64,000 nucleotides of DNA, taken from Flavobacterium sp. N2038. Lineage in GTDB: Bacteria > Bacteroidota > Bacteroidia > Flavobacteriales > Flavobacteriaceae. The position numbers and the translations under genes are program-made. Positions 3,868 to 31,484 of the stretch are shown here, piece by piece. The stretch lies in contig NZ_CP110001.1 of the NCBI RefSeq assembly GCF_025947185.1, positions 434,001-498,000 of the forward strand, read 5' to 3'. Position 1 is the first letter of the stretch. Each line of letters begins with the position of its first letter. Below the pieces are notes generated by a model that had not been told where the DNA came from, did no database searches, and saw only the letters and a program-made list of their open reading frames with translations.

Positions 3868-4614
3868 ATGTTATCAATAAAAAACCTTCACGCCGCGATT
3901 GGTGATAAAGAAATCCTTAAGGGAATTAATATAGAAGTTAAAGCTGGAGAAGTTCACGCGATAATGGGACCAAACGGTTCTGGAAAAAGTACACTTTCTG
4001 CTGTTATCGCAGGAAACGAAAACTATGAAGTTACAGACGGAGAGGTTATTCTTGACGGAGAAGATCTTGCCGATTTAGCTCCGGAAGAAAGAGCACATAA
4101 AGGTGTTTTCCTTTCGTTTCAATATCCTGTAGAAATTCCCGGAGTTAGCGTAACTAACTTTATGAAAACAGCGATCAACGAAACTCGTAAAGCAAACGGA
4201 CAAGAAGAAATGCCGGCAAATGAAATGCTGAAAGTAATTCGTGAAAAATCTGAATTATTAGAAATTGACCGTAAATTTTTATCTCGTTCTTTAAATGAAG
4301 GTTTTTCCGGAGGAGAGAAAAAAAGAAACGAGATTTTTCAAATGGCAATGTTAGAGCCAAAATTAGCCATCCTTGACGAAACCGATTCTGGTCTTGATAT
4401 CGATGCTTTAAGAATTGTTGCAAATGGAGTTAACAAACTAAAAAGCGACAAAAACGCTATTATCGTTATCACACACTACCAACGTTTGTTAGATTATATC
4501 GTTCCTGATTTCGTTCACGTTCTTTACAACGGAAGAATCGTAAAATCTGGCGGAAAAGAATTAGCATACGAATTAGAAGAAAAAGGATACGACTGGATTA
4601 AGGCAGAGAATTAG
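3868..4614 (+). CDS. sufC: Fe-S cluster assembly ATPase SufC
   Basis: 248 residues, an ABC-type ATPase without membrane domains. Walker A is GPNGSGKST at residues 34-42, the signature is LNEGFSGGEKKR, and Walker B is LAILDETDSGLD, the SufC-specific form with DETDSGLD. It powers the SufBC2D scaffold. It lies downstream of sufB and a small flavoprotein gene, and upstream of sufD. A repeat-borne ORF has come between sufC and sufD. Confidence 0.97.
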   Translation: MLSIKNLHAAIGDKEILKGINIEVKAGEVHAIMGPNGSGKSTLSAVIAGNENYEVTDGEVILDGEDLADLAPEERAHKGVFLSFQYPVEIPGVSVTNFMKTAINETRKANGQEEMPANEMLKVIREKSELLEIDRKFLSRSLNEGFSGGEKKRNEIFQMAMLEPKLAILDETDSGLDIDALRIVANGVNKLKSDKNAIIVITHYQRLLDYIVPDFVHVLYNGRIVKSGGKELAYELEEKGYDWIKAEN

Positions 4615-4616
4615 TC

Positions 4617-5137
4617 AGTCATAAAGTCGAAAGTCAAAAGTCATAAAGTCGAAAATACAATATGGGTAAGTTCAAATCTTTTGAGGAAATAAATTCTTGG
4701 CAAAAATCTCGAATCTTCAATAAGAAAATATATTTGATTACTGAAAATCCTAATTTCAAAAAAGACTTTGATTTTGTTAGACAAATAAGACGTGCATCAC
4801 TTTCTATATCATCAAATATTGCCGAAGGTTTTGAAAGAAATACAGACAAAGAGTTTATTTACTTTTTATATGTAGCCAAAGCTTCAGCAGGAGAAGTAAG
4901 ATCTCAATTATATTTAGCTTTTGATTTAGAATATATTATAAAAGAAGAATTTGAAATGCTTTTAGAATCGGTAACAGAAATATCGAAATTATTAAGCGGT
5001 TTCATTAAATATTTGAGCCCAAAGTCATAAAGTCGAAAGTCATAAAGTCAAAAACTTTATGCTTTAATTCTTGACCTTTTGGCAAAAACAGTCGACAATC
5101 CTAAGTCTTTCGACTTTCGACTTTCGACTTTAAGACT
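4617..5137. repeat. Composite hairpin element (AGTC family) carrying one ORF
   Basis: The left end holds agtcataaagtcgaaagtc (4617-4635), with a second partial unit to 4655. An exact 19-base direct copy lies just after the internal ORF at 5023-5041. The right end, gactttcgactttaagact (5119-5137), is the reverse complement of the left arm with one mismatch. The arms therefore bracket the four-helix-bundle gene, and the stop codon of that gene (5028-5030) lies within the second direct copy. The element ends 10 bases before the sufD start codon. Confidence 0.8.
4662..5030 (+). CDS. Four-helix-bundle protein (23S rRNA intervening-sequence protein family)
   Basis: 122 residues. The segment FVRQIRRASLSISSNIAEGFER followed by LYVAKASAGEVRSQLYLA is diagnostic of the S23/IVP four-helix-bundle family, first known from ORFs in intervening sequences of 23S rRNA genes. 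The molecular role is unknown; the fold forms pentamers in solved relatives. Here it is not in an rRNA gene but in the suf operon, bounded by the AGTC-family inverted repeats. Its last residues (SPKS) and stop codon are encoded by the repeat itself. Probably carried along as part of a mobile or once-mobile element. Confidence 0.9.
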   Translation: MGKFKSFEEINSWQKSRIFNKKIYLITENPNFKKDFDFVRQIRRASLSISSNIAEGFERNTDKEFIYFLYVAKASAGEVRSQLYLAFDLEYIIKEEFEMLLESVTEISKLLSGFIKYLSPKS

Positions 5138-5147
5138 AAACAACAAA

Positions 5148-9365: not shown

Positions 9366-9791
9366 ATGAGACTATTATCCTTACTTTTTTTGTCGATTTT
9401 TATTGTAACGGGCTGTTCAAGCCAAAAATCAACAGATATGACAAATACGAAAATTGAATATTCTGCACTTTCAAGAGGGTATTATAAAAAAATTGTAGTT
9501 CAGAATCAAACTGTTTCTGTTGTGAACGAAAGAGATCAGCAGCCAGTTGAAAGTAAGATTGATAATGCGAAATGGAAACAAATTGTAACTGAGTTTTCAA
9601 AAATTAATTTAGAAGAAATTCCAAATTTGAAAGCACCAACCGAAAAACGTTTTTATGATGGTGCAGCTATTGGAAATTTAAAAATAACTCAAAATCAAAA
9701 AACCTACGAAACTAAAGGTTTTGACAACGGTATTCCTCCAAAGGAAATTGAAAAACTAGTCAATTTACTGGTTGATTTTGTTAAAGAATAA
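9366..9791 (+). CDS. Small lipoprotein between sufS and sufE
   Basis: 141 residues. A signal sequence ends in VTGC with the lipid-modified cysteine at C17. The mature part has no motif I can name; residues 70-130 look like a small alpha/beta domain. It lies 11 bases after sufS and overlaps nothing; sufE starts 2 bases after its stop, so the three are one operon. A secreted lipoprotein has no evident part in Fe-S assembly, so its place here may only reflect shared transcription. Confidence 0.8.
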   Translation: MRLLSLLFLSIFIVTGCSSQKSTDMTNTKIEYSALSRGYYKKIVVQNQTVSVVNERDQQPVESKIDNAKWKQIVTEFSKINLEEIPNLKAPTEKRFYDGAAIGNLKITQNQKTYETKGFDNGIPPKEIEKLVNLLVDFVKE

Positions 9792-9793
9792 TT

Positions 9794-10219
9794 ATGACAA
9801 TAAAAGAGATACAAAACGAAATAATCGACGAATTTTCGATGTTTGATGACTGGATGCAGCGCTATGAGTACATCATCGAATTAGGAAAAAGTCTTCCTCT
9901 AATCAAAGAAGAATATAAAACTGACGAGAATTTAATCAAAGGATGTCAATCAAAAGTTTGGTTGCAAGGTGAACAAGTCGATGATAAGATTGTCTTCACT
10001 GCAGACAGTGATGCCATTTTGACTAAAGGGATAATTGCCATTTTAATTCGTGCATTCTCGAATCAAAAAGCATCAGACATCATAAATGCTGACACTGAAT
10101 TTATAGACGAAATTGGATTAAAAGAACATTTATCAGCAACACGTGCCAACGGTTTGGTTTCGATGATCAAAAACATCAAAATGTACGCATTGGCTTTTGA
10201 CGCAAAAAACAAAAATTAA
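9794..10219 (+). CDS. sufE: Cysteine desulfuration protein SufE
   Basis: 141 residues, family-typical length. The sulfur-accepting cysteine is C51 in LIKGCQSKVWL. SufE takes the persulfide from SufS and hands it to SufB. The gene starts 2 bases after the preceding lipoprotein gene, in the sufS operon. Downstream the operon is interrupted by two hairpin elements and a GxxExxY ORF before the DUF59 gene. Confidence 0.96.
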   Translation: MTIKEIQNEIIDEFSMFDDWMQRYEYIIELGKSLPLIKEEYKTDENLIKGCQSKVWLQGEQVDDKIVFTADSDAILTKGIIAILIRAFSNQKASDIINADTEFIDEIGLKEHLSATRANGLVSMIKNIKMYALAFDAKNKN

Positions 10220-10229
10220 AAAATTTTAA

Positions 10230-10341
10230 ACCATATAAGTAATATAAGAAAATTTAAGTTTTGGTGCTTAAAATTATTGTATTGATAAACATAAGTTACA
10301 TTATTAAGAGTATTTAAATGAACTTATATTACTTATATGGT
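10230..10341. repeat. Hairpin element, ATATAAG family (left copy)
   Basis: The left arm accatataagtaatataag (10230-10248) and right arm cttatattacttatatggt (10323-10341) are exact reverse complements. The 74 bases between them are AT-rich and hold no ORF. The same family recurs at 10829-10885 and 31375-31484. Confidence 0.85.
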
Positions 10342-10404
10342 GGAAAACAATAAATGTAAGTTTTATCTTTCTTTTTTATTTCTTATTATTGCTAAAAAAG
10401 GCAG

Positions 10405-10815
10405 ATGATAACAAAGAAATATTTGACTGATTTAATTTATCAAGTTAACGGAGCAGCAATTGAAGTTCATAAAAATATTGGAGCCGGACTTTTAGAAAGT
10501 ATCTATCATCAATGTATGATTAAAGAATTATCCTTAAGAGGAATTAATTTTCAATCAGAACTCAAAATACCTGTTGAATATAAAGGTCTGGAATTAGAGT
10601 CAGATTTAAGATGTGATTTATTTATTGAAAATTGCTTAGTTCTTGAACTAAAATCAGCTGATAAAATTATACCTATTCATATTGCGAAACTAATGTCTTA
10701 TATGAAGCTTTTAAAGTCCCCAATAGGATTAATGATAAATTTTAATGTCACAAATATTTATCACGAAGGCCAAAAAACATACGTCAACGAATTGTATCGC
10801 TGGCTAGAAGATTAA
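10405..10815 (+). CDS. GxxExxY protein (PD-(D/E)XK nuclease-like fold)
   Basis: 136 residues. The name-giving motif is GAGLLESIY at about residues 27-35, and the later D-L-x(n)-LELKSADK has the layout of a PD-(D/E)XK nuclease active site (E..D..ExK). The family is common in Bacteroidota and its role is unknown. It sits between sufE and the DUF59 gene, flanked on both sides by ATATAAG-family repeats whose outermost arms are complementary over 18 of 19 bases. It is therefore probably element-borne cargo and not a suf component. Confidence 0.9.
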   Translation: MITKKYLTDLIYQVNGAAIEVHKNIGAGLLESIYHQCMIKELSLRGINFQSELKIPVEYKGLELESDLRCDLFIENCLVLELKSADKIIPIHIAKLMSYMKLLKSPIGLMINFNVTNIYHEGQKTYVNELYRWLED

Positions 10816-10828
10816 AATATAAAAAGAA

Positions 10829-10885
10829 ACCATAAATATTTATATAAGCATCCAATTTTAAATGAACTTATATAACTTATATGGT
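10829..10885. repeat. Hairpin element, ATATAAG family (right copy)
   Basis: Short copy with a degenerate left arm (10829-10848) and a right arm cttatataacttatatggt (10867-10885). The right arm is complementary to the far left arm at 10230-10248 with one mismatch, so the GxxExxY gene can be viewed as lying inside one 656-base inverted repeat. It ends 18 bases before the true start of the DUF59 gene. Confidence 0.75.
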
Positions 10886-10903
10886 GAAAAAACAAAAATA
10901 ACA

Positions 10904-11227
10904 ATGGAACAAGAAATAGACACAAACGAATTAGGAGAATCAATCGTAAAAGTTTTAAAAGGAATTTACGATCCTGAGATTCCTGTTGATATTTATGAAT
11001 TAGGATTAATTTACGATGTAATGGTTAATACTGATTACGAAGTAAAAATCTTAATGACACTTACTTCACCAAACTGTCCGGTTGCAGAAAGTTTACCAAG
11101 AGAAGTTGAGGAAAAAGTAAAAACAATCGAAAACATCAAAGATGTTGATGTTGAAATTACTTTTGATCCGCCTTGGAGTAAAGATTTAATGAGCGAAGAA
11201 GCAAAATTAGAATTAGGAATGCTTTAA
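10904..11227 (+). CDS. SUF-associated DUF59 (MIP18-like) Fe-S assembly protein
   Basis: 107 residues from the ATG at 10904. The DUF59 core is seen in YDPEIPVDIYELGLIYDV and in LTSPNCPVAESLP, with the cysteine of the TSPNCP motif. FDPPWSKDLMSEEAKLELGM is the usual C-terminus. DUF59 proteins such as SufT and MIP18 help deliver or mature Fe-S clusters. An in-frame ATG at 10862 would add MNLYNLYGEKTKIT, but those codons are the ATATAAG-family repeat, so I reject that start. Confidence 0.92.
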   Translation: MEQEIDTNELGESIVKVLKGIYDPEIPVDIYELGLIYDVMVNTDYEVKILMTLTSPNCPVAESLPREVEEKVKTIENIKDVDVEITFDPPWSKDLMSEEAKLELGML

Positions 11228-11230
11228 AAA

Positions 11231-11303
11231 TAGTCATAAAGTCCAAAGTCATAAAGTCCAAAATTTAAAAGCTTTATGACTTTCGACATTTGACTTTAAG
11301 ACT
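11231..11303. repeat. Empty hairpin element, AGTC family
   Basis: Direct units agtcataaagtccaaagtc (from 11232), a short spacer, then the inverted end ctttatgactttcgac...gactttaagact. It is the ORF-free counterpart of the element at 4617-5137. It ends about 7 bases before the DUF2480 start codon, a position shared with the other copies. Confidence 0.75.
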
Positions 11304-11309
11304 TAAAGA

Positions 11310-11819
11310 ATGGAAGAAATTATCAATAAAGTTGCCAATAGTGCTTTAGAAGTTTTTGATTTAGAGGATTATTATCCAAAAGGAATGCGAGTTCAGATTG
11401 ATATTTCGCAATGGCTTTTGGAAGGTTTTTTATTGAAAGAAAAAGACTTTAGAGAACATCTTAAAAATCATGACTGGTCACAATACCAAGATCAATACGT
11501 TGCGGTAAATTGCAGTACAGATGCTATTATTCCTGCCTGGGCATTAATTTTAGTTAGTGTGCATTTGGCTCCTTTTGCCAAAAAAGTAGTTAACGGAACC
11601 ATCGAAGACTTAGACGCAAGTCTTTATGAAGAAATCCTAAGTAAAATTGATTATTCTGTTTACAAAAGTAAACCCGTAATTGTAAAAGGCTGTTCCAGAA
11701 AGCCGGTTCCAATGCGCGCGTACATTTTGGCTACAACTTATTTACAACCTTTTGCAAGAAGTATTATGTATGGAGAAGCCTGTTCTGCGGTCCCTTTATA
11801 TAAAGAATCTAAGAAATAA
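11310..11819 (+). CDS. DUF2480 family protein
   Basis: 169 residues. The pattern of N-terminal EVFDLEDYYPKG, central YVAVNCSTDAIIPAWALILV, and C-terminal KPVPMRAYILATTYLQPFARSIMYGEACSAVPLYK is that of DUF2480, a Bacteroidota protein of unknown function commonly found at the end of suf clusters. Conserved cysteines (NCST, KGCS, GEACS) would allow metal or Fe-S binding, but this is inference. Preceded by an empty AGTC-family hairpin. Confidence 0.88.
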   Translation: MEEIINKVANSALEVFDLEDYYPKGMRVQIDISQWLLEGFLLKEKDFREHLKNHDWSQYQDQYVAVNCSTDAIIPAWALILVSVHLAPFAKKVVNGTIEDLDASLYEEILSKIDYSVYKSKPVIVKGCSRKPVPMRAYILATTYLQPFARSIMYGEACSAVPLYKESKK

Positions 11820-31374: not shown

Positions 31375-31484
31375 ACCATATAAGTAATATAAGTTCATTT
31401 AATTCTTACCGCTTATATTTCTTTATCAAAATGGCGATAGTTTTTAAACGACCAACTTATATATGCTTATATGACTTATATGGT
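31375..31484. repeat. Empty hairpin element, ATATAAG family
   Basis: Left arm accatataagtaatataag (31375-31393), identical to that at 10230, and right arm cttatatgacttatatggt (31466-31484), complementary with one mismatch. The 72 bases between them hold no ORF. It fills the whole spacer between purN and rnhA, 13 bases from each gene. Confidence 0.85.

Follow-up and report, generated by a model that had tools for sequence, protein, structure and literature searches.

The window analysed here is a 64-kb stretch of DNA, bases 434001-498000 of the 4.67-Mb chromosome of Flavobacterium sp. N2038. Between the host gene sufE and a SufT-like gene it carries a small gene of the GxxExxY family enclosed by inverted arms, and a companion element around a four-helix-bundle gene lies in the same operon. 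The features are as follows.

4617-5137, no strand: AGTC-word arms enclosing the four-helix-bundle gene; the best inverted pair is 26 nt, 4617-4642 with 5112-5137
4662-5030, plus strand: four-helix-bundle gene, PF05635, S23/Avd-like, the companion element of the same operon (profile matches)
9794-10219, plus strand: sufE, the upstream host gene (open reading frame and profile match)
10230-10248, plus strand: left arm ACCATATAAGTAATATAAG, of the ATAAG word class (sequence match)
10230-10341, no strand: complete 112-nt hairpin in the gap from sufE to the GxxExxY gene (predicted RNA fold of -31.1 kcal/mol)
10323-10341, minus strand: second arm, the exact complement of the left arm (pattern match)
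10405-10815, plus strand: GxxExxY gene, 136 aa, PF13366 PDDEXK_3 / TIGR04256 (profile matches)
10845-10891, minus strand: right arm block with its core at 10867-10885, 79% complementary to 10224-10270 over 47 nt
10904-11227, plus strand: SufT-like host gene, DUF59 / PF01883, with 10904 as the likelier start
31375-31484, no strand: empty ATAAG hairpin of 110 nt between two minus-strand reading frames (inverted arms)

The arm ACCATATAAGTNATATAAG has three sites at this locus: 10230-10248, and in inverted orientation 10323-10341 and 10867-10885. The sequence-only reading had claimed the first of these, as accatataagtaatataag, and the last, and the bases of the two do agree at 18 of 19 positions. 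It overlooked the arm at 10323-10341, which complements the left arm at 19 of 19. With this third arm present, 10230-10341 is by itself a complete empty hairpin, and the order at the locus is a complete hairpin, the GxxExxY gene, and then one more inverted arm. The empty version that had been placed at 31375-31484 is there as well, its arms being found by sequence. The whole window holds 5 arm matches with at most 3 mismatches against 0.16 expected, and none of 100 shuffles reached 5. Two smaller observations belong to the right-hand side of the locus. The longest SufT reading frame begins at 10862, within the right arm block, and a start called there automatically would be wrong if the true start is 10904. 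An AGTC-word hairpin, AAAGTCCAAAGTCATAAAG / CTTTATGACTTT and onward, lies at 11228-11310 between the SufT-like gene and a DUF2480 gene; it resembles the arms of the four-helix-bundle element with no gene between them.

The protein itself matches the GxxExxY and PDDEXK_3 profiles at 126.9 bits (cut-off 35) and 124.6 bits (cut-off 22). TIGR04256 and PF13366 are its only matches, with no Y1/HuH tyrosine transposase domain, and the sole other profile lead is a weak match to Cas4 (E 0.013). The presumed active-site positions D71, E81 and K83 are conserved in all 115 genus genes compared, N112 in 114 and E31 in 112. Downstream of D...ExK is a motif that we take to be QxxxY-like; its Q is present in 111 of the 115 and its Y in 108, and the window's protein has K at the Q position. 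Among relatives with solved structures there was one weak match by sequence and one by profile (E 0.074 and 0.046), neither convincing, and PHROGs gave no match. The family is large: of 6114 candidates from one search, 6102 are relatives at E <= 0.001.

Are inverted arms a general property of these genes? Within the genus, TIGR04256 has matches in 50 of 61 genomes and none in the other 11, some of which are incomplete. Our genus sample of 118 loci consists of 8 from the own genome, 30 that were returned, and 80 from the top of a score-sorted list, so weak family members are under-sampled. It holds 119 matching reading frames, and 115 unique genes whose flanks reach 100 nt or more on each side. 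Arms were called by local alignment of the 300-nt flanks in inverted orientation at a score of at least 16. The sequence-only reading had proposed that complementary arms flank these genes more often than other genes, and they do so by a wide margin: 87 of 115 GxxExxY genes pass, against 7 of 289 other genes of at least 100 aa at the same loci. Random pairing of flanks from different GxxExxY genes passes in 86 of 2000 trials; direct-orientation matches are also raised, at 26 of 115. In the own genome 7 of the 8 genes exceed all 100 flank shuffles, with a different arm sequence in each, and the eighth does not. A wider sample, the best 80 of 580 relatives and in named genomes only, gave 73 genes with flanks, and the same enrichment holds there (42 of 73, against 9 of 404 control genes; random pairings 167 of 2000, direct orientation 17 of 73). 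The arms nevertheless fall below threshold at 28 of the 115 genus genes and 31 of the 73 wider genes, and this counts against the explanation that we favour below. Arms with AAG-type words occur at genes labelled Bacteroidota, Cyanobacteriota, Acidobacteriota, Thermodesulfobacteriota, Verrucomicrobiota and Lentisphaerota, with the proviso that several of these records are metagenome bins whose labels may be wrong. The wider scan was seeded with AAG- and GAT-class proteins, so it says little on other word classes elsewhere.

The arms have a common design. They are built of short direct words repeated every 8-10 nt; in 174 arms, repeated 4-mers at offsets 8, 9 and 10 number 213, 289 and 237, against about 30 each in shuffled arms. 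After reading the arms, and before building a tree, we sorted the words into six classes, AAG, GAT, AAT, TTAAG, ATAAG (the window's own) and ATAG; the GAT rule was corrected once, in the script which then built the tree. That tree has 115 proteins, 96 word-labelled and 19 not; it is built on few columns, and 32 of its forks are open. The word labels need 8 changes over the 96 genes (the minimum is 5), against a shuffled mean of 46.2, and none of 200 shuffles was as low. Orthologues at one locus are not independent, so the test was repeated with a single gene taken from each neighbour group (29 rows, 20 draws). The number of changes was then 5-6, while shuffled labels averaged 14-16 and had minima of 10-13. 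The word class of the flanking arms can be predicted from the protein clade.

Reading further loci gave the same picture. We read 19 of 29 new loci, seven of which were already in the first gene set. Among them, the 9 closest relatives carry ATAAG words, 10 with the window itself, and all 10 of the next-tier relatives have ATAG words in their 300-nt flanks, although L229, near a contig end, has the word only once. Six of the 19 loci also contain between one and three copies of ATTAAG. Residue 24, just before the GxxExxY motif, is I, L, V or M in 8 of 9 AAT genes and in 3 of 28 GAT genes; with only 3-4 independent pairs it is no more than a lead for a specificity residue.

The same arm is scattered through the chromosome. 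With at most 2 mismatches there are 68 arm matches genome-wide, against 2 for the reversed control pattern. Laid out with up to 4 mismatches per arm, the own genome has 27 arm pairs and 17 arms without a partner. All 27 pairs are intergenic, overlapping any reading frame of at least 100 aa by no more than 30 nt. A variable base within the arm is the same in both partners in 20 of 27 pairs, against 8.1 expected, and none of 10000 permutations was as high. This agreement means that the stem has been kept, or has been copied as a stem. Local arrangements can be elaborate. In G015, at the site orthologous to window 31375-31484 (L334 near 16600), there is an ATAAG hairpin whose internal unit stands three times in tandem, resembling a BIME array. 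Dense local arrays of ATAG arms lie at G022:C1:2697050-2698407, in steps of about 81 nt around the gene, and at G047:C107:91790-93550.

Copy number also goes with the matching gene type. We compared 61 genomes for three of the six word classes, and the p values, all one-sided, ignore kinship in the species tree. ATAAG-word copies are more numerous in genomes with an ATAAG gene (p 0.0008), 9 of 10 such genomes having copies and 18 of 51 of the others; the corresponding figures are 7 of 7 and 28 of 54 for TTAAG (p 0.0002) and 9 of 14 and 9 of 47 for ATAG (p 0.0001). Subtracting 3 copies per gene-bearing genome leaves p at 0.002, 0.001 and 0.04 respectively. The ATAG figures should be read knowing that gene-bearing genomes were assigned by protein similarity, with arms read in 10 of the 14, and that the ATAG pattern begins ACC and misses arms beginning AAAC, as in G006 and G057. 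The correspondence has its exceptions. Two mismatched pairs, the TTAAG gene with ATAG copies (p 0.011) and the ATAG gene with TTAAG copies (p 0.016), count against it; the remaining four of the six mismatched combinations do not reach 0.05. A genome may have anything between 0 and 90 copies of the ATAAG word, and the 90 belong to G008, which is without an ATAAG-type gene, as is G057 with its 37 copies. G003 has an ATAAG-type gene and no exact copies of the word. The comparison of GAT/AAT copy ratios for the switch at one orthologous locus, made by hand with 6 AAT and 5 GAT genomes, was weak.

The gene itself is found at conserved loci, as judged by neighbouring genes. Most neighbour groups have one word class and some have two or three; all 10 genes with ATAAG words are located between sufE and sufT. 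We examined 30 sufE loci, the own one and 29 from relatives, and both sufE and sufT are visible in 26. The gene is present in 5 of these, the own included. Another 7 have a hairpin or remnant without the gene, of the ATAAG, AAT or TTAAG kind by inspection, 13 have a gap of at most 60 nt with no recognised hairpin, and 1 has other sequence. Bare alleles between sufE and the DUF59 gene, which had been suggested as something to look for, thus exist. G008 has a SufE protein with 99% identity to that of the window, and there an empty AAT hairpin occupies the site instead of the gene. The four relatives that were compared are only 82-83% identical over the aligned parts, so a recent junction is not readable, and that comparison yielded no new insertion, no excision product and no target-site duplication of the kind expected from a classical insertion sequence or MITE.

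The four-helix-bundle genes, present in 60 of 61 genomes, show a parallel arrangement. That the same architecture surrounds them, as was claimed, is borne out: arms flank 12 of 28 such genes, against 2 of 56 other reading frames, with different words. The sufC-sufD slot has a similar turnover with these genes. At that slot (window 4613-5146) G008 and G015 have other four-helix-bundle reading frames with GTTTCA-type arms, and G042 and G049 have a short insert without a gene. To call the arms of the GxxExxY gene an "unrelated" hairpin family was too strong, as they belong to one of several word classes that share one design. The idea that two protein families of this operon ride on hairpin carriers is right in so far as the same architecture is found at both. 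The GxxExxY gene is not simply riding: the word can be told from the clade of its protein, and it keeps to a single locus whereas the empty hairpins are scattered.

We think it probable, judging from the sequences compared here, that GxxExxY proteins recognise their cognate word-built hairpins and spread or maintain them, gene and arms forming one unit. The gene is static and mostly vertically inherited, and its predicted product is a small PD-(D/E)XK nuclease-like protein. The empty hairpin copies, in our best reading, are non-autonomous elements dispersed between genes. The protein, probably in multimeric form, would bind the repeated word on the hairpin stem in single-stranded or cruciform DNA, and would cut at the hairpin or at the target. 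Binding and cutting together could then let the hairpins spread, be amplified or be maintained, in the manner proposed for RAYTs and REPINs, with one hairpin family to each paralogue. This reading draws on what is observed: arms flank the gene, word and protein correspond, copies are dispersed between genes, paired arms covary so as to stay complementary, and the active-site residues are conserved. It is weakened by the possibility that gene and arms are simply inherited together, with no recognition involved.

REPINs and RAYTs are the closest parallel in behaviour. The RAYT papers describe a gene flanked by inverted repeats, coevolution of gene and repeat, and a repeat abundance that follows the gene (PMC2817692; PMC3116915). 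Here too a single gene lies between inverted repeats and is mostly vertically inherited, and its cognate repeats are dispersed as intergenic inverted doublets forming hairpins (the 68 arms and 27 pairs). The word follows the protein at conserved loci, and repeat abundance follows the gene for three word classes, with G008, G057 and G003 as the exceptions. There are also differences. RAYTs are HuH/Y1 tyrosine transposases and the GxxExxY product is a PD-(D/E)XK protein; their repeat is a short palindrome with a GTAG/GTGG foot, and here there are direct words at an 8-10-nt period with longer stems. The stem base has no such foot, the arms of the window's family beginning ACCATATAAG with A/T-rich flanks by inspection. 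Y1 genes with palindromes of their own exist in the same genus. With an unrelated protein and a different repeat design, this is not a RAYT system, though it works like one.

The main rival is an RNA-level element like the intervening sequences of 23S rRNA. The arms would be a double-stranded stem in the operon transcript, RNase III would remove the insert, the host operon would tolerate it, and the protein would be carried along or bind RNA. We regard this as improbable, though some points favour it. The 23S intervening sequences have terminal inverted repeats (a 28-bp stem in Coxiella), an S23p reading frame, heptamer repeats upstream of it and excision by RNase III (PMC4990558). The likeness is a small reading frame in a long hairpin whose complementary ends form a stem, and the companion gene at 4662-5030 is itself of the S23/four-helix-bundle family. 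The paired arms covary, and GxxExxY genes are co-directed with both neighbours in 93 of 108 cases, against 144 of 210 controls, as if read from the host transcript. Yet the element lies between the protein-coding genes sufE and sufT rather than in rRNA, and has a GxxExxY gene in place of S23p, many dispersed empty copies, and a word that follows protein clade. A location in rRNA was not found: scanning 227 loci with six 23S fragments gave a single loose match, L301. Where both neighbours of an empty hairpin could be seen, in 23 cases, they are convergent or divergent in 11, and excision by RNase III needs neither conserved nuclease residues nor a word that follows the protein. A search for known RNA families at 9500-11500 gave four matches up to E 1, all far under gathering scores and none on the element.

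A second alternative is a domesticated host system, in which the nuclease uses dispersed hairpins as chromosomal or mRNA sites, for mRNA 3'-end processing or chromosome organisation, and present mobility is nil. Static genes at orthologous loci and paired arms that stay complementary would both be expected of it. We consider it quite unlikely. Some relatives have the gene at the sufE-sufT site, while others lack it or have different hairpins in its place, and this patchiness, together with the 11 genomes without a family match, some of them incomplete, makes essentiality unlikely; so wide a spread of ATAAG-word copies among genomes does not fit it either.

It is very unlikely, in our judgement, that the GxxExxY gene is a captured passenger on hairpins moved by Y1/RAYT transposases or by replication slippage. 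Of 25 genus genomes, 20 have Y1 transposase matches, with 4 such matches in the own genome, inverted arms are found at 11 of the 27 Y1 genes examined (30 loci), and a TnpA-REP subclass 2.6 of Bacteroidetes with atypical flanking structures has been described (PMC6006769). When the PF01797 loci were compared, however, the Y1 arms proved to be different, REP-like palindromes. In a loose test, two words of one class are found in 3 of 11 Y1 arms against 79 of 87 GxxExxY arms, and capture does not predict a word that follows GxxExxY phylogeny. The Y1 loci L377, L378, L396, L398, L399, L403 and L404 have their own palindromes, for example around GCTCCGTAGGAGC, ATCCCGTAGGGATG and GCGAGCGTCACGCTCGTG. 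We do not take transcription terminators as the main reading, given arms that are long and A/T-rich, enclose a gene, and differ by protein clade.

Two further comparisons concern the proteins. With Cas4/RecB-like PD-(D/E)XK nucleases the GxxExxY protein shares D...ExK, the downstream QxxxY-like motif and the weak Cas4 profile match, but it is small and free-standing, with sufE and sufT as neighbours. In the companion element, the four-helix-bundle protein has a match to Avd of diversity-generating retroelements, a likeness that carries no claim about the GxxExxY protein.

Scattered empty hairpins together with a gene whose word matches suggest a system that has gone unrecognised, that of miniature DNA elements with dedicated enzymes. 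A literature search, whose scope excluded most subscription papers, met no description of an association between GxxExxY genes and hairpins. A survey reports thousands of REP-like palindromes in two Flavobacterium genomes, and its main text mentions neither RAYT, TnpA nor GxxExxY (PMC12306157). The nuclease-and-hairpin unit proposed here is a possible source for intergenic hairpins in Flavobacterium. More broadly, it is a tentative but quite possible conclusion that GxxExxY proteins are trans-acting enzymes spreading hairpins across many phyla with a readable protein-to-word code, and that the four-helix-bundle (S23/Avd-like) proteins run parallel on the same general design. If so, the two kinds of system would explain much of the short word-repeat intergenic DNA in Bacteroidota. 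The correspondence of word and protein would offer a recognition code, like that of REP and RAYT in an unrelated protein, that is directly testable. There are thousands of GxxExxY proteins, named for a motif alone; this large family would gain a specific role, and the DNA next to each gene would tell which substrate to predict for its protein.
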